Shown: piece by piece, positions 57,111-64,000 of the stretch
Layout: the number at the start of each line of letters is the position of its first letter
How positions within the stretch are numbered: the first letter of the stretch is position 1
Origin: Akanthomyces muscarius
Lineage: Eukaryota; Ascomycota; Sordariomycetes; Hypocreales; Cordycipitaceae
Assembly (NCBI RefSeq): GCF_028009165.1
Contig: NC_079246.1
Coordinates: 1,922,001 to 1,986,000, forward strand
Length of the DNA stretch: 64,000 nucleotides
Direction of reading: 5' to 3'
Position numbers and translations under genes: made by a program
Notes under the pieces: model-generated
Told to the model about the DNA's origin: nothing
The model's database searches: none
The model's input: the letters and a program-made list of their open reading frames with translations, nothing else

Positions 57111-57322
57111 AAACGAGAGTATCAATAGTTGTAATTCACAGGCAATAAGGAGAAATGTATTCAGAAAATATGTATTCATAAACTCTGTGTCTTTTGTATA
57201 AGTTGATCCGCCACAGCACTAAAACTTTCTGGCTCGCCCAAACTCAACATGTAACTCTCATCTAAACAAAACTCACAAGGAACTATCGCGCAGCCAAGAA
57301 ATAGAACCCATCAGTGCATCTT

Positions 57323-58156
57323 TTAGAAAGGCAGCTTAGATCCAGTAGGGCAAGCCTTGGTTGTAGTCGTCACGGTGACGGGGGCAGTCTTGGTGCAAGT
57401 CGGAGTGGGAGTGCAGTCCTTGGTGTCGGTAGAGGTGACAGTGACAGTAGAAGCAGCAGGGCAGGTTCCGTTGCCGGGGCCAGGCTTGGTGGTGGTGGGA
57501 GTAGTTCCAGTCGTTGTAGCGGGAGGAGTAGTAGGAGCCGACGTAGTGCCAGGCGGCTTCGTGGAAGTGGGAGCCGCAGTGGTGGTGGGAGCCGCAGTGG
57601 TGGTGGGCTGAGTAGTCGGGCTGCCGCCGCCGCCACCGTTCTGGCAGTTGGCAGGGCTGAACAGGTCCTTAGCTTCGGCAAGATCCTTCTGGAGAGGAGC
57701 GACAAGGCTCTGAGCAATGGACTGCGCAGCCGCGGGGACCTTGGAGACGACTGTCTTGATCAGAGCGTCAGAGGCATTGCTGAGGTCGGTGACCTGGAGC
57801 AGGGTGACGTCGCACAGGCCAGCGGCGGCCAGGGCGCTCTTCTTGTCCTTGATGGCAGCGAGGAGAGCGTCGCCCTTGGTCTGCAGATCCTTGGCGGGCC
57901 CGGTGAGACCAAGAGCTTCGTTCAGGGTCAGAGCAGGTAGAGGCTGAATCTTGGCATCGCCATCCTTCAGGTCCTGGATGACCTTGTTGGAGGCATCGAG
58001 AAGCGCAGAAGGGTCTCCAGTGAAGCCCGTGGTGGCAGTGGTCAGGCCTTGAAGGTCAGCACCAACACCGTTGAGGACGCCTTGGATGGTGGCGAGATCA
58101 CGGGGGAGGACGCCGGCAGCAATGCCGGTGGCGAAGAACAGAGAGAGGAACTTCAT
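57323..58156 (-). CDS. HsbA-like secreted protein with Thr/Pro-rich tail
   Basis: Single exon, 277 aa. Signal peptide MKFLSLFFATGIAAG, then a Kex2-like PRD site. The HsbA/galactomannoprotein-type helical domain spans about 18-170 (LATIQGVLNGVGADLQGLTT; SNASDALIKTVVSKVPAAAQ, SIAQSLVAPLQKDLAEAKDL), followed by a Gly stretch and a Thr/Pro-rich tail (about 178-235), then a six-Cys-poor end with CPAAS, CTPTPTC and CPTGSK. HsbA of Aspergillus oryzae binds hydrophobic surfaces and recruits a polyesterase; other members are cell-wall mannoproteins. The tail suggests heavy O-glycosylation and wall attachment; no clear GPI signal at the end (KLPF). A TATA-like element (ATACATAAAA on this strand) lies near 58268. 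Confidence 0.8.
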   Translation of the reverse strand: MKFLSLFFATGIAAGVLPRDLATIQGVLNGVGADLQGLTTATTGFTGDPSALLDASNKVIQDLKDGDAKIQPLPALTLNEALGLTGPAKDLQTKGDALLAAIKDKKSALAAAGLCDVTLLQVTDLSNASDALIKTVVSKVPAAAQSIAQSLVAPLQKDLAEAKDLFSPANCQNGGGGGSPTTQPTTTAAPTTTAAPTSTKPPGTTSAPTTPPATTTGTTPTTTKPGPGNGTCPAASTVTVTSTDTKDCTPTPTCTKTAPVTVTTTTKACPTGSKLPF

Positions 58157-59181
58157 TGTAGATATGAGAATTTCTGTAAGTGAAGAAAGAGTGTTCGTTG
58201 AAGTGTGATCTGCGAAGCTGCCAGAGGATGCTGCTGATTTGGAAATGAAACCAGCTGATCCATGCCTTTTTATGTATCCAGTTCAATGACTGTCAAGGCC
58301 AACCTTGGCACATGTGTGGTTCTTCGAAGCCGAGCAATTAAGCCAATTGATTTCAGCTGAGAGATATAATTCATATTGCAAGTGTTTGCCGTTCTGTCAT
58401 TGCACACCAAGCGCAGGACCAAGGCACGGTCCTCCGGTGTCATGGCGGAATTTTGGTGGCTGAAATGCGGCTCATCGGCAGTTCATTGTTTAATAACAGC
58501 CTGCAGTCTCCAACTTTTGGTCAATAGCGTATTATCTTGCAGAATGCGGGGAAATGGAGTGCAATGAGGGGGAGAGTCTGGGGAACGACCACATATGATC
58601 AGCCATGCAGAAGCGGGCCGCATATTACTCCAAGTTCGAGAACGCCTGAACTTACACGAGCCTTGATTTCGCTGCATTTAACGACGCCACAAAATGAACA
58701 ATAAATTAAAGAGCTAGCGACTAATCCAATTAGGTACTGGCGTGGTATGGTGTCAATGGAGGTGCCTCGATTTGGCCCTGGGTACATATGTATGGGCACA
58801 CATGTCTTAGTTCGTCACCACATATGTGACAGCAAACGTTTGATCGCCGAGGTACGGTGGAGCAAATGCAACCATAACTCTTTCCTAGTCTAGAGACACT
58901 TGTTCAATTTGAACATTTTGGGGTTTGTTTTTGTCATCTCATCCTCCAGAACAGGGTTGCCATGTTCAATGGTCATGGGGATGATGAACGCATGTAGTGT
59001 CGACATTCCGTACGAACTAACACAGAATTACATCAGCGTAACCTCAAATTACTGGTACATGTCAACGTTGGCTTGAGTAAAGATCATCTATAAATACTCC
59101 TGATGCTCTCGAATGGTCCTGATTTAGAAGCTGATCATCACTCACTGACCCCATTCACCTTATCTCTACCTCTTTGCCAAA
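58157..59181. other. Divergent promoter region of two HsbA-like genes
   Basis: About 1 kb between the starts of the minus-strand and plus-strand HsbA-like genes. No coding region; TATA elements at both ends (near 58268 and at 59089). Confidence 0.5.
59089..59095 (+). promoter_or_regulatory. TATA box of second HsbA-like gene
   Basis: TATAAAT 87 bp before the ATG at 59182, followed by a CT-rich leader ending CCAAAATG. Confidence 0.55.
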
Positions 59182-59769
59182 ATGCTCGTCTCCAAGCTCA
59201 TTGCCCCGGTCGCCTTCGCCGCCACGGTCTTCGCCGATGGCGCGGCCATCAACGACGGGCTGAAGACTGTCGACGCCGACATCAAGGCTCTCACTGCTAG
59301 CCTCACGGGATTCTCAGGCGATCTCTTCGCCGCCATTCCCGTCCTCGGCGCGACCTTGACCCTCAAGTCTGCCATTGACAAGACTACCAAGACCGCCAAT
59401 AGCTCCGAGCCTCTCTCTTCCGATGACACTGTCGGTCTTGCCGACACTGTCGGCACAATCATCACCGATGCAACTGCCGCGATTGATGCCTTCATCGCTG
59501 TCAAGCCCAAGTTTGACAAGCTGTTGATTGTCACCCCTATTGCTGCTGGTCAGGTCAAGGGCCTCAAGACGTCGACCGCCGCGCTTGGCGACGCCATCAT
59601 TGCCAAGGTCCCGGCCGACTTCAAGGACGTCGCCACCCAGCTCGTCGGCCAGATCAATGCCCAGTTCGACAGAGGTATTGCTGCCTACGGCGGCGCTGCT
59701 GGTGGCGCCTCGCCATTCCCTGGCTTCCCTGGCACTCGCCGATCCACTCGTCTGGACCGCCACTACTAA
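59182..59769 (+). CDS. HsbA-like secreted protein
   Basis: Single exon, 195 aa. Signal peptide MLVSKLIAPVAFAATVFA. The helical domain follows: INDGLKTVDADIKALTASLT, FSGDLFAAIPVLGATLTLKS, TVGTIITDATAAIDAFIAVK, ALGDAIIAKVPADFKDVATQ and LVGQINAQFDRGIAAYGG, matching the HsbA pattern of an N-terminal helical hairpin and an amphipathic C-terminal helix. A Gly/Ala/Pro-rich tail ends RRSTRLDRHY. No cysteine. Compared with the first member it lacks the Thr/Pro tail and is close to the minimal HsbA. Probably secreted and surface-active; role inferred from the family. Confidence 0.78.
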   Translation: MLVSKLIAPVAFAATVFADGAAINDGLKTVDADIKALTASLTGFSGDLFAAIPVLGATLTLKSAIDKTTKTANSSEPLSSDDTVGLADTVGTIITDATAAIDAFIAVKPKFDKLLIVTPIAAGQVKGLKTSTAALGDAIIAKVPADFKDVATQLVGQINAQFDRGIAAYGGAAGGASPFPGFPGTRRSTRLDRHY

Positions 59770-60265
59770 TATCCCAGTAAGCAAGGTCAGTGATGGGGAT
59801 CATTGATCGTGCCTGCTGGTTTCATTAATGCGCCGGAAGTATAATAGCTTGGCAACATAGATAGCATTAAATGGAATCTGATACAACAAAAATATGCTCA
59901 TGTGCCATGTTTGTATCTTGACTCTCGCGTACTTTGATTTTTCAATTCAACTCGAAAAAGTTGAGTAAATATGTCCGGCCCGTAGCTGCCCAATACCATT
60001 TCCGAGACTGGCGCCGATGATGAAACTCTTGCCAGCAGCCACAATATGTTCGACGAGCAACATCGAGAACTAGAACTATGCTACAATCTGGCGTCAGTTG
60101 ATTGGGAAAATTAAGTGCTTTAAATGCAATTGAGATCCTGATATGAGAAATCTAGATATTGTGCCTCTTTTAATTGTACGCAAGAAAGTATTCATGGCTA
60201 ATCGCCGGGACTATGCGTGTCGCGGCGGCGAACGAGCGGTCGCTGCGGCAGTCAGGCTCCCCAAC
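59770..60265. other. Convergent 3' spacer
   Basis: Between the stops of two HsbA-like genes on opposite strands. AT-rich; no gene seen. Confidence 0.5.
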
Positions 60266-60802
60266 CTATTTCACATAGACTTGAATGGTCTGATAAAAAT
60301 GAAAGTCCAGCGCCGAGACAAGAAGGGGCGCAACATCCTGAACAGTCTTGACAAATTTGCCTGTCAATGCTGCCGCGAACGCATCCGTGGTGTTTTGAAG
60401 ACCTTGCAACTCATCCCGCACAAAATCAGTAATAGCGCTCCCGCCCAGTTGATCGAAAACGTCCCGCTTCGCCGTCACCTTCCCAAGCACCGCGTATGTA
60501 ACATCAGTAATTCCGACAACGGAGTAGGCAATAGTGGACGAATCCTGGTCACTGAAGGCCGTCGAATTCTTGACAGAGTCCGTGGCTGTCTGAAGCTCAG
60601 TCTGCAGCTCCATGGCCTGGTTTTGAAAGTCCACAGCTGCTTGAGCGTCGTTGGGGCCCTGGATCTTGTCGAGTGTCGTATTCATGGTCTTGAGCTGGTC
60701 AGTTATTTTTGATATAGTGCTGACCACACCTGTCACGTCGCGTTGTAGCAGATGGCCGATGGCCGGCGCGACGAAAAATGGGAGGAGTGTCTTGAACTGC
60801 AT
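60266..60802 (-). CDS. HsbA-like secreted protein
   Basis: Single exon, 178 aa. The ATG at 60802 gives the signal-peptide start MQFKTLLPFFVAPAIGHLL; an upstream in-frame ATG (60844) would mask it and is not used. HsbA-type helical content: VTGVVSTISKITDQLKTMNT, DFQNQAMELQTELQTATDSV, YSVVGITDVTYAVLGKVTAK, LQNTTDAFAAALTGKFVKTV, QDVAPLLVSALDFHF. Two or three NxT/S sequons; no cysteine. A possible Kex2 site (QRD) follows the signal peptide. The third member of the cluster and divergent from the others, with weaker similarity to the consensus. Confidence 0.7.
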   Translation of the reverse strand: MQFKTLLPFFVAPAIGHLLQRDVTGVVSTISKITDQLKTMNTTLDKIQGPNDAQAAVDFQNQAMELQTELQTATDSVKNSTAFSDQDSSTIAYSVVGITDVTYAVLGKVTAKRDVFDQLGGSAITDFVRDELQGLQNTTDAFAAALTGKFVKTVQDVAPLLVSALDFHFYQTIQVYVK

Positions 60803-61737
60803 TTTGGTCCAGGTGCTGGGGTTTCGCGGATTCAACGAGGTCAAACGATGCGTCCAGTAGGGTAGAAAGACGGCAGAAAAGTTTGAATAGGCGGCCTTTC
60901 AAGAATGACAGAATATTGTTTATTTACTAATATCTCGCAAAATGGCGGGGATTGGCATAAATGAGCGTGTGTGAGCTTGGTCCTCGGCTTCCCACTGCAG
61001 CATTTACCTTGTGCTCGGAAAGTAAATAGACAGCGAAGTCCAAAATGGAAAGGCTGCCACACAGTGGAGAACTCACGGCAGTTACCCAGTAGAAAGTAAT
61101 AACATTCTGCATCAGTCCGGTACATATGCTGCAGTGCATCCATAAAAGGATGCGGAGTACATGTGAGAATCTCTCGGCATCGACCGTGCTGATCTCTCCA
61201 CTCACACCGATGCAGGTACCTGCCCATCCCGCCACCTACCCCAGAAAAGGACATTCCGTGCTTTTGGGTAGTCTGCTGCATACAATGACTGGTCTAGTGT
61301 GGCGGACCATTCCTACAGCAGTTGCACGGGCTGTCTCGGCACCAAGAAGTAGCCCGACATTGGAGAGGCCTAGACGGCGCTGATCAAGAGCCCATCTTCC
61401 GTCTGCCGTAGCGAAAGAACGCTGTAAGTAGAGTTACGCAACTTTCTAAAATGCAGATAGGAAAATCGAATAGATTGTGCCATGCAATTTTTGCAATGGC
61501 TTTTGGGAATGCAACAATTTACAGGACAGCTTTCGTATTACAAGCCTCCAACTAGATAGATCTTAATCAAAAGGTATTTACCGCAGGAACCTAATACTGT
61601 CTTCTCTATCCAGACTTTTCATTTTGTACAATTACTGAAAGAATAAACTCGATGCAATTGTACGATTTACTGCATTATCGCTGATATTCTATTAGCCGAG
61701 CTAGCCTCTCTTTCGATCGGCACACAGCACATCCCGT
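60803..61737. other. Spacer between HsbA-like gene and lipase gene
   Basis: About 0.9 kb upstream of one minus-strand gene and downstream of the other. No supported gene. Confidence 0.45.
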
Positions 61738-62801
61738 TCAGGGCCACACTGCGCCACACGCAGGAACAAACAAGACACTACCAATCACGGTGTTGCTGTA
61801 TGTGATGTGTGCATTATTGATCAGAGTGCTTCCGAAATCTTGACCGGCGTTGCATTTCTATACGCAAGCATGTTAGACTCGTAAAGCAGATACAGCTCCA
61901 CCTCACTCAAGGAGGGGGCAGCAAGTGAGTGTCTTACCGGGGAGTCAATTTCGCATTTCAAAGTGGTTTCAGCCGAGTTGTTTGTCTGCTGGCTTTGGAA
62001 ATATTCCGGAGAATGGTGGGCATATCCCAGCACCGTTGGCGGAATCTGCGGTACTCCGTCTGAAGAGTGCGTCACACGGTAGTAGTGGTCATCCGAGATC
62101 ACTGAGTTGTAGTGTTTGGCCCAAGCCGCATCGCCGTTGCGCGGCTCACCAAAGGTGAATACTTCGGACACCTGGAAGCCCATACCCGCGAAGGAGGTTG
62201 CCGCGATAGAGGCAATACCCCCGCCAAGGGAATGACCGGTAACAACAAATCGCCAGTCTTCCTCGCAGAGCAATCCCTGCAGAGTGGTTCCAATTGGCTT
62301 CATGACTGAGGTGTAAGCGCTTTGAAACCCATTGTGGACCTGTAGGAATTGAGTTTTATCAGTATTGATTGCAGACTTCAGCGAAGAATTCGCGTCCTAC
62401 CTTGCAATCGGAGCAATTCGTGCCAGGGGCACTGAGGGGGACAAGCGCGAACGCAAGGTCCGAGTCGAGCTCCTTAGGCGAGGAGGTACCCCGAAACGCA
62501 ACAATTATTTCCTTCGCTTTATCGTCGCGGAAGATTGTAGCATGAGTACCCGTAGTGGCATCGTCGACACCCTTGACAATGGTAGAGCCAAATGGTGGTG
62601 TTCCGCAATCTTCCTGATACGCAGCGGCAGAAAATGCCGTGTATCGCACCAATTTGTCGAACAGGTCCGATGATACTTCAAGGACACTTTTTAGCCATCT
62701 TTGCGACACATTTCAAGAGACGGAGTGAGAAGCTTACCTGGTGTCTGGGCGGAGACAACTGCCTGTGTGAGGCCAATCGACGCGAGAAAAAGCCAACGCA
62801 T
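61738..62801 (-). CDS. Secreted class-3 lipase (alpha/beta hydrolase)
   Basis: Four-exon model complement(join(61738..61857,61938..62339,62401..62675,62738..62801)), 286 aa. Signal peptide MRWLFLASIGLTQAVVSA. Introns of 62, 61 and 80 nt keep frame: QTP|VSSDLFDKL, CSDCK|VHNGFQSAY and EIDSP|KCNAGQDFGS. Motifs: VRYTAFSAAAYQEDC, EIIVAFRGTSSPKELDSDLA (oxyanion region, lid), VVTGHSLGGGIAS with the nucleophile Ser near 150, SSDGVPQIPP with Asp near 207, GYAHHSPEYF with His near 221. The last exon (CNAGQDFGSTLINNAHITY, ending GAVWP) is a typical filamentous-fungal class-3 terminus and is missed without splicing. Hydrolyses acylglycerols or feruloyl-type esters outside the cell. It lies amid HsbA-like genes, which may help it adsorb to hydrophobic substrates. 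Confidence 0.9.
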
Positions 62802-63210
62802 TTTGAGTGATTGCAAGTACAGAGTTTTGTGAGTTGAAGTGTCCGAAGTCGAGACTTAGTATACAATCCAATGATGGCCACCGAGTCTTAGGCTGGCTTA
62901 AATGACCTATCCGCCATAGACCATGCTACTCCCACTACTGGTCATACGTATTGATGCATGTGTCACGGCATTGGAATCCGAGCTGGGGAAGCTTTTAGTC
63001 ACCCTCGGTAGAATCGGGAGCGTGCTGGTGCACATATGTGTGCACAGTCCGCCAATGTAACGCCTTGACAGATGGGGGTGTGGTGGAGTGGTAGGCCGCA
63101 CTAGACAGCGCCGGCGGCGGATCGTCTTGGTTTAATTGAAGACAATCCGTCGACGTACCCATCTTCGCATCTCTCCCAAATATTCCAAACTTTTTGCAAG
63201 AAAAAACAAC
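62802..63210. other. Divergent promoter region, lipase / fourth HsbA-like gene
   Basis: 409 bp between divergent starts; the arrangement would permit co-regulation. No strong TATA near the plus-strand gene. Confidence 0.45.
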
Positions 63211-63735
63211 ATGCGGTTTCTGGGTTTATTCGGCGTGTTCGGGCTCTTCGTCGCCGCAAAGGCGGCTGATTTCCAAACCGTGCGAGACGACATCGCCAAC
63301 ATTAGCGCCATTCTTCAGCACCTGGACACCGATGCCAAGGGCATCCAGGCTGGTTCAGTAGGCATTGCCCGGTCGCTCCAGCTCGAGGTCGATTCTGTTC
63401 AGGTGCACAAATTGCTTTTAAGCACTACAGACGACACCAAAGCATCGCCTCCTTTTGAGGATCATTCCATTGATGTCGGCGGCGACTTCTTGAACCTGCA
63501 GCCCGTCATCAATGGTGTGCTGAAAACGATTACCGATCTCCAACCCAACTTGAAGGAGCTCAGCCCCGTGGTGGTGGCGATCCTGTATCAGTTGAAGCAG
63601 GACTCGGATGTGCTTGGAAAGGAAGTGTCGGGCAAGCTAAGCGCAGATTTCCAAGCGGTGGCACAGCAGGTTCTCGGGGAAATTGACGATACATTCAATA
63701 CTGCAATCACGACATACGGCGGGAAAAGTAAGTAG
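63211..63735 (+). CDS. HsbA-like secreted protein
   Basis: Single exon, 174 aa, start MRFLGLFGVFGLFVAAKAAD (signal peptide cleaved near AKA). The start at 63211 is chosen over an upstream in-frame codon because it begins the hydrophobic signal. HsbA pattern: FQTVRDDIANISAILQHLDT, LNLQPVINGVLKTITDLQPN, LKELSPVVVAILYQLKQDSD, VLGKEVSGKLSADFQAVAQQ and VLGEIDDTFNTAITTYGG. The terminus is ambiguous: read through, it ends GGKSK at TAG 63733-63735; a GTAAGT donor at 63729 with a CTAACT branch site and GAAGTAG acceptor (63787) would give GGKKT ending at 63795. No cysteine, no tail. Confidence 0.75.
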   Translation: MRFLGLFGVFGLFVAAKAADFQTVRDDIANISAILQHLDTDAKGIQAGSVGIARSLQLEVDSVQVHKLLLSTTDDTKASPPFEDHSIDVGGDFLNLQPVINGVLKTITDLQPNLKELSPVVVAILYQLKQDSDVLGKEVSGKLSADFQAVAQQVLGEIDDTFNTAITTYGGKSK

Positions 63736-64000
63736 ACAGTGTTCTGTTTCTTTGTTCTCCTTGGATATTACCTCTAACTTGAAGTAGAGACCTGAGGAAT
63801 TTGGTTGGGGAAACGGCAGCTCAGACAATACGATAGTTTGACTTTTTGTAGAGAAGATTAGCAGCTAGATAACCCAATTAAATTATCAAAGCTTCAAAAC
63901 TAGGAATTAGTCCGTCATAATACGGTTTACGTCGTTGATTACGCGCACCTCGCTCTGGCCTGTCTTTTTTGGGCTGTCCTGTGCAGCACAATGAAAACGC
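63736..64000. other. 3' flank at window end
   Basis: AT-rich, no gene recognised. A further gene could start beyond the window. Confidence 0.4.

Follow-up and report, generated by a model that had tools for sequence, protein, structure and literature searches.

A seven-gene HsbA cluster with a class-3 lipase in Akanthomyces muscarius, probably co-induced by fatty acids or oily surfaces

The genome of the insect-infecting fungus Akanthomyces muscarius, which protein identities place near Akanthomyces lecanii, contains a cluster of seven HsbA-domain genes with one class-3 lipase gene. Half of it is carried by the window (the whole 64,000-nucleotide stretch of DNA that was analysed), and its promoters suggest that fatty acids or oily surfaces on balance probably induce the genes jointly. 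A genome-wide HsbA profile search returned 22 matches, 18 of them above the cut-off, and seven of these 18 are packed into 14.8 kb; a 15.8-kb stretch around them would be expected to hold 0.008, so that the grouping is far from random. An earlier note on this DNA had described four such genes around a secreted lipase; the four reading frames are uninterrupted and have exactly the lengths and positions it gave (Table 1), as has the divergent lipase/hsbA4 arrangement, but its count of four was too low, as the array runs past the window end, with a gene for an MFS-type transporter sitting between hsbA4 and hsbA5. No physical cluster of HsbA genes is described in the available text of the open-access literature searched.

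Table 1. Genes and promoter elements of the HsbA/lipase cluster; positions are those of the window, except that those prefixed C6 lie past its end.
Feature	Position	Strand	Description
hsbA1	57323-58156	-	277 aa; HsbA domain 22-138, 2 Cys inside domain; intact ORF
hsbA2	59182-59769	+	195 aa; HsbA domain 21-140, Cys-less; intact ORF
hsbA3	60266-60802	-	178 aa; HsbA domain 26-147, Cys-less; intact ORF
Class-3 lipase, predicted secreted	61738-62801	-	286 aa, GHSLGG at residue 148; 4 exons: 62801-62738, 62675-62401, 62339-61938, 61857-61738
hsbA4	63211-63735	+	174 aa; HsbA domain 22-140, Cys-less; intact ORF
hsbA5	C6:1988870-1989511	+	
hsbA6	C6:1991951-1992760	+	
hsbA7	C6:1993608-1994144	-	
Divergent promoter, lipase/hsbA4	62802-63210		409 bp
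Composite, hsbA1/hsbA2 divergent promoter	58819-58852	-	CCTCGG 58852-58847, then CACATATGTG 58828-58819
Additional ACATATGT, hsbA1/hsbA2 promoter	58784-58791		
CCTCGG, 180 bp upstream of hsbA3	60982-60987	+	
Composite, lipase/hsbA4 divergent promoter	63003-63040	+	CCTCGG 63003-63008, CACATATGTG 63031-63040; CCTCGG-N23-ACATATGT(G)
TCCGCCA, lipase/hsbA4 divergent promoter	62910-62916 and 63048-63054		

Membership of the HsbA family was defined as a whole-protein score above the curated cut-off of 33.5 bits for Pfam PF12296. The products of hsbA1 to hsbA4 score 88, 92.6, 68.2 and 57.5 bits, and therefore a lack of profile hits cannot be held against the assignment made in the earlier note; those of hsbA5 to hsbA7 score 55.5, 79 and 96 bits. 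The hydrophobin family is absent from the Pfam matches of all seven proteins. Signal peptides were assessed by eye, as was the long, Ser/Thr/Pro-rich tail of hsbA1. As the note had also held, the members are diverged, with 16 of the 21 pairs in the cluster less than 30% identical, while hsbA1, A6 and A7 share 39-43% identity among themselves, and the nearest relatives of hsbA2, A6 and A7 lie elsewhere in the genome. Together with the lack of any long DNA repeat in 57300-64000, the window part of the cluster, this divergence led us to reject a recent tandem array. The argument is based on identities because the HsbA tree is weakly resolved, with good support for 3 of its 17 inner branches and a single firm pairing among cluster members, that of hsbA7 with C5:3680099.

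A rare composite element, CCTCGG-N15-23-ACATATGT, is common to the hsbA1/hsbA2, lipase/hsbA4, MFS/hsbA5 and hsbA6 promoter regions, its two halves always being oriented in the same way to each other. It contains the fatty-acid-response motif published in the available part of PMC5068947; its word lengths and gap range were set after the motif had been noticed. The exact composite is missing from the hsbA3 and hsbA7 promoters, the former having ACATATG in the absence of the full ACATATGT. Neither half carries the same weight. CCTCGG occurs in 7/8 cluster promoters versus 9/13 other HsbA promoters, which is about chance level, and by itself was therefore rejected as a sign of Far control. The shared 8-mer alone, found in 5/6 regions, was equalled in only 1/300 trials under a Markov null, but real-sequence controls were less favourable (8/500 real slices and 34/500 draws of dispersed promoters) and it was downgraded for this reason. 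Only the combination with ACATATGT is special. Such a combination fits a module for hydrophobic lipid substrates, in line with the earlier note, which had named insect cuticle wax, plant cutin and plastics as candidate surfaces. A search of the open-access literature found no mention of CACATATG as a fungal promoter motif.

Outside the cluster the genome holds 26 CACATATGTG sites, including two pairs (L038 with L039, L040 with L055) that are copies of one repeat, and just one of the 26 has CCTCGG within 45 bases. That single site belongs to one of two fungal-rhodopsin loci with CACATATGTG in the 2 kb preceding the matched domain, among 47 merged loci of this family (PF20684) above the cut-off (0.07 expected, P 0.002), an association that is exploratory because it was spotted after all 26 sites had been viewed. 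Inspected by eye, both of these putative receptors have a cysteine-rich N-terminus resembling CFEM, yet neither locus is among the matches listed by a CFEM search. The L036 reading frame matched no family when scanned. A sixth composite lies at C1:4005447 (L029), where there is no assignable gene.

The linkage of hsbA2, the lipase and hsbA4 is retained in several Cordycipitaceae and related genera, and a gene model of Aphanocladium album joins the lipase to an HsbA part that shares 70% identity with hsbA3. The genes can nevertheless part, since in C. militaris hsbA2 and hsbA4 are found with no lipase among the matches listed (120 of 167), and in Pochonia hsbA2 and the lipase are on separate contigs. 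Beauveria supplies 8 of the 27 hsbA2 matches, none of the 17 hsbA4 matches and none of the 120 lipase matches listed. This retention of hsbA2 by distant relatives without its cluster partners, the annotation of orthologues as cell wall galactomannoproteins and the mutual similarity of hsbA1, A6 and A7 would be expected if the locus were a plain neighbourhood of cell-wall mannoproteins, built by old local duplication, with promoter words kept by descent and the lipase a bystander. We regard this as unlikely given the low identities, the relatives outside the cluster and the lack of a long repeat in the window part, all described above. Moreover, the spacer between the half-sites is different in each of the four cluster composites, and the 13 dispersed HsbA promoters contain ACATATGT once and the composite in no case, so that descent alone is insufficient to account for the common element.

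What the HsbA proteins might bind is suggested by their fold. Models of hsbA2 and hsbA4 closely match the five-helix bundle of the Mp1p/Afmp4p lipid-binding type (PDB 5j5k, 5j5l, 5e7x, 5ecf, 5csd, 5fb7, 3l1n and 6j6f); both modelled proteins are Cys-less, unlike the canonical Cys-bearing members A1, A5, A6 and A7. Profile similarity to these domains holds across the whole HsbA set, although the hsbA4 sequence alone retrieves no Mp1p sequence in the PDB. Profiles and models together place the HsbA proteins in a family whose solved representatives, the Mp1p/Afmp4p domains, are fatty-acid-binding helical bundles, palmitate or arachidonate being named as ligand in the PDB titles. The cluster proteins differ from these in that 4/7 (A1, A5, A6, A7) have at least two cysteines in the compared part and 3/7 have none, and from Mp1p in having one domain, in all seven cases, rather than two in tandem. 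The link between HsbA and the Mp1p fold is not new, because HsbA domains were already modelled on 3l1n in the paper on MoSVP, an HsbA-domain effector of Magnaporthe oryzae (PMC6859710, available part); MoSVP is likewise a secreted HsbA-domain protein, studied there as a single gene in a plant pathogen.

The modelled fold thus favours fatty-acid binding first, ahead of the role that the earlier note had proposed, in which HsbA proteins attach to a hydrophobic surface and bring in the lipase encoded beside them, in the manner of A. oryzae HsbA, which, in the part of PMC9394342 available, binds PBSA with Ca2+ and recruits the cutinase CutL1. A dedicated adaptor would suit the single divergent promoter serving the lipase and hsbA4 and the linkage of both in relatives. 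The partner published in that text is, however, a cutinase and not a class-3 lipase, none of the genome's 24 cutinase matches falls inside the cluster, and seven diverged HsbA genes to a single lipase would be an unusual number if they encoded dedicated adaptors. We therefore consider recruitment doubtful; the grouping and the shared composite uphold the broader idea of a module for hydrophobic substrates. Alternatively, the proteins could be released within the insect to sequester host signalling lipids of the arachidonate type, a role proposed for Mp1p in animals, while the lipase would be a passive neighbour or a supplier. This is decidedly unlikely: the 13 Mp1p homologues with a single domain, as in all seven proteins here, are reported not to be virulence factors, and the Far/CTF1 motif and the lipase linkage fit nutrition or surface lipids better.

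The lipase itself, identified as class-3 in the earlier note, scores 108 bits against a cut-off of 22 for Lipase_3 (PF01764), with GHSLGG as its nucleophile elbow. Its splice sites were picked by eye and are backed by a 99% identical database protein of equal length. Asp207 and His264 are presumably its triad partners, as read from the alignment at the triad positions of FaeA. Feruloyl esterase A belongs to the same fold family (PMC1660568, available part) and is the nearest solved structure (1uwc, E 3.1e-44; Thermomyces lipase, 7.6e-30). Positions 71, 75, 78, 80 and 100 of FaeA (D, Q, T, Y, Y) are called positively selected in that text, which gives F at position 100 as the lipase state; the window enzyme has P88, D92, L95, F97 and F118 there. 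Position 75 remains polar (D vs Q). Sequence comparison thus shows a predicted complete class-3 lipase, of lipase type and not FaeA type at the five diagnostic positions, and it is very unlikely, even with FaeA as best solved relative and with many homologues annotated as ferulic acid esterase A, that we are dealing with a genuine feruloyl esterase A in a cluster serving plant cell-wall or endophytic growth.

Co-induction by fatty acids or oily surfaces is therefore the reading that we prefer. The composite, in four promoter regions and in fixed orientation, strongly suggests that a Far/CTF1-type Zn2Cys6 factor and a second factor on an E-box-like palindrome would co-induce the genes concerned. 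The lipase would free fatty acids from lipid on a hydrophobic surface; the soluble proteins A2, A3, A4 and A7 would take up these products, which dissolve poorly, and may also form a coat on the surface, and A1, A5 and A6, with Ser/Thr-rich or hydrophobic C-terminal tails, would hold the ligand at the wall for uptake. Freed fatty acid would feed back onto the Far/CTF1 element. The nearest known system is the FarA regulon of A. oryzae, which includes hsbA, the cutinase gene cutL1 and the lipase gene mdlB (PMC4117967, PMC8180590) and also couples an HsbA protein to a lipolytic enzyme under a fatty-acid regulator reading CCTCGG. As far as the available parts of these reports go, it is described as the regulation of separate genes, with no cluster mentioned, whereas the present locus groups seven HsbA genes with a lipase gene and couples CCTCGG to ACATATGT.

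More tentatively, CCTCGG-N15-23-ACATATGT could be a new two-factor switch, combining a Far/CTF1-type fatty-acid regulator with an E-box-like-palindrome factor, and could mark out a small regulon for oily surfaces in Cordycipitaceae. Its members would be the seven lipid-binding proteins, the lipase, the transporter and, from a different contig, a gene for a Pth11-type receptor; we hold this to be possible and rather unlikely. If true, the receptor would sense the same surface, and sensing, hydrolysis and lipid capture would come under one promoter code. Proteins with an HsbA domain are common among fungi, several of them having been connected with infection. The locus offers a natural set of seven diverged HsbA genes and one lipase with a common promoter element and with linkage in several genera, and it bears on whether HsbA proteins carry fatty acids or serve enzymes as adaptors, and on whether a Far/CTF1 motif with a second site may serve to tell oily surfaces from intracellular fatty acids.

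The arrangement described in the earlier note, four secreted HsbA-like proteins around a class-3 lipase, is confirmed and extends past the window. The four open reading frames lie exactly where that note placed them, all four exceed the Pfam HsbA (PF12296) cut-off in a profile search, the secreted enzyme amid them matches Lipase_3, and it diverges from the last of them, hsbA4, with a start-to-start gap of 409 bp. The window ends just past hsbA4 and the HsbA array continues in the genome. A six-frame search of the source genome (36.19 Mb, 12 contigs, the window being C6:1922001-1986000) gave 22 HsbA matches, 18 exceeding the cut-off, and seven of these 18 (hsbA1 to hsbA7, three outside the window) fall in one stretch, against 0.008 expected when 1 kb is added for the last promoter. 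The gene order is hsbA1(-), hsbA2(+), hsbA3(-), lipase(-), hsbA4(+), MFS-type transporter(-), hsbA5(+), hsbA6(+), hsbA7(-).

Features in and around the cluster and elsewhere in the genome (C, contigs; L, genome stretches)
Feature	Location	Strand	Details
Fatty acid hydroxylase family protein, flanking cluster	window:54443-55489		79.1 bits
CACATGTG, similar to cluster word	window:56003		upstream of DUF3712 gene
DUF3712 protein, adjoining hsbA1	window:56335-57110		second exon 51.7 bits
Lipase	window:62801-61738	-	four exons, 286 aa, Lipase_3 108 bits
Seven HsbA genes	C6:1979323-1994144		14.8 kb
MFS-type transporter, between hsbA4 and hsbA5	C6:1986166-1988016 (L012:166 to about 2016)	-	called from a single 178-aa exon ORF, Sugar_tr 27.7 bits
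Composite, MFS/hsbA5 shared intergenic region	C6:1988513-1988543		gap 17
TGGCGGA/TCCGCCA copies	window:58443, 61300, 62910, 63048; C6:1988182		
Fifth composite	C5:1185791-1185821 (L030:2992-3022)		~600 bp upstream of receptor gene's apparent start
CACATATGTG upstream of second receptor gene	C2:1016098 (L036:1699)		CCTCGG not nearby
Short secreted Cys-rich protein	L044:3207-3401 (C4, near 377.8 kb)		hydrophobin-like by eye
Second, looser HsbA trio	C2:165-170 kb (L014)		third match under cut-off
Weak HsbA-like match	C8:632857-633216 (L026)		26.2 bits (under cut-off), near end of 981-aa frame

The cluster is apparently co-regulated, judging from its promoters. The recurrence of CACATATGTG (29 copies genome-wide, control pattern 15, three of the 29 inside the cluster) was spotted while reading the DNA, so that the promoter tests are post hoc and controls were therefore added. 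Within 800 bp upstream (divergent pairs sharing sites, and one comparison gene having only 344 bp), ACATATGT precedes 7/8 cluster genes (the lipase and seven hsbA) vs 1/13 other HsbA genes and TGGCGGA 6/8 vs 0/13; the Far/CTF1 site CCTCGG, at 7/8 and 9/13, is near chance. TGGCGGA/TCCGCCA, with five copies in 5.2 kb of cluster promoters vs six in 69.7 kb of other noncoding DNA, is a possible third shared element.

The composite CCTCGG-N10-30-ACATATGT has six genome sites (reversed control, none), four of them in the cluster, all in one relative orientation: in the hsbA1/hsbA2, lipase/hsbA4, MFS/hsbA5 and hsbA6 promoter regions (gaps of 19, 23, 17 and 15). The opposite orientation has five genome sites, none in the cluster (control, one). 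A uniform genome predicts 0.0026 composites in 15.8 kb (P = 2e-12), a value that is generous because such words are unevenly spread, and that becomes about 1e-4 once multiplied by all 6-mer x 8-mer pairs. In an exhaustive 6-mer/gap/8-mer search of six regions, CCTCGG with ACATATGT was the sole best pair (4/6); 4/6 was reached by none of 300 random draws of real slices and by 3/200 draws of dispersed HsbA promoters (12 of 13 used), via a GAAGAA repeat. The hsbA7 promoter has CACATATGTG without an exact CCTCGG alongside, and that of hsbA3 has CCTCGG and ACATATG, separated.

Outside the cluster, the gene below the fifth composite matches PF20684, the fungal rhodopsin domain, with 131 bits when a single exon is scored and 175.8 bits genome-wide, and encodes a receptor that we take to be Pth11-type; its N-terminus is CFEM-like by eye, at a place not listed in the CFEM search. 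Another PF20684-family receptor gene lies downstream of a CACATATGTG, and no gene could be assigned to the sixth composite. Pth11 of M. oryzae is studied as a receptor for surface cues (PMC5491321). Separately, the Cys-rich protein of L044 lies about 1.5 kb from a CACATATGTG; its 65 aa, the stretch ending inside the gene, gave no Pfam family.

A fresh tandem array is ruled out, since 16 of the 21 cluster HsbA pairs are <30% identical and the best reaches 43%. For hsbA2, hsbA6 and hsbA7 the nearest relative of all is on a different contig (43, 47 and 57% identical), and a tree of 20 HsbA proteins is mostly unresolved. In the compared part, cysteines are present in hsbA1, A5, A6 and A7 and absent from hsbA2, A3 and A4. 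By eye, hsbA1 has a Ser/Thr/Pro-rich tail, and hsbA5 and hsbA6 have hydrophobic, anchor-like ends. Elsewhere, the trio on C2 includes a 430-aa protein in which Gly-Ser is repeated over a long stretch and whose end resembles an anchor, and ACATATGT is absent from all three of its HsbA promoters; the frame on C8 has long Gly/Asn/Pro-rich repeats and an end that seems, by eye, to be two similar helical units.

The source fungus probably belongs to the Akanthomyces lecanii complex, insect pathogens of the Cordycipitaceae: among the matches listed the closest named proteins are from A. lecanii RCEF 1005 (hsbA4 99%, lipase 99%). Linkage was judged with hsbA2, hsbA4 and the lipase as queries, from locus tags and from equal-sized contigs, which imply rather than prove a shared contig. 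By locus tags, the genes are close in Lecanicillium saksenae (hsbA2 NLG97_g314, lipase g316, hsbA4 g317), Aphanocladium album (hsbA2 PWT90_00456, lipase and HsbA joined 00455, hsbA4 00454) and A. lecanii (hsbA2 LLEC1_00544, hsbA4 LLEC1_00547). Equal-sized contigs hold all three in C. fumosorosea (594755) and one further genome (26881), lipase and hsbA4 in RCEF 1005 (1294879), and hsbA2 and lipase in C. javanica (935885). The HsbA part of PWT90_00455 is 70% identical to hsbA3, whose counterpart was found in this relative only; the joining is probably a fused gene prediction, because a signal-like start lies mid-model. Linkage is kept in several relatives; against it, Pochonia has hsbA2 and lipase on contigs of 841546 and 1247910. 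Beauveria supplies 8 of 27 hsbA2 matches and is absent from the 17 hsbA4 matches and the 120 lipase matches listed (of 167); Cordyceps militaris has hsbA2 and hsbA4, with no lipase among those 120.

The solved structures nearest the lipase are feruloyl esterase A (1uwc, E 3.1e-44) and then Thermomyces lipase (7.6e-30), and FaeA annotation is common among the homologues listed. According to one study, FaeA positions 71, 75, 78, 80 and 100 were positively selected for new function (PMC1660568). The corresponding residues of the enzyme described here are P, D, L, F and F; Phe100 is the lipase state, and the residue at position 75 is still polar. We read the enzyme as a lipase rather than FaeA.

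Beyond the promoter and fold evidence, we infer a mechanism in which fatty acids or oily surfaces would act through a Far/CTF1-type factor and a second factor on the cluster promoters, the lipase would release fatty acids, and the HsbA proteins would take these up and may coat the surface, with the tailed members (hsbA1, hsbA5, hsbA6) retaining them at the wall. The regulator has precedent in A. oryzae (PMC4117967, PMC8180590). The earlier suggestion of HsbA adaptors working with the lipase on hydrophobic surfaces is partly supported, lipid capture now ranking ahead of enzyme recruitment. The locus appears to be a version of the known pairing of HsbA with a lipolytic enzyme that differs in its genes being clustered and apparently co-regulated.
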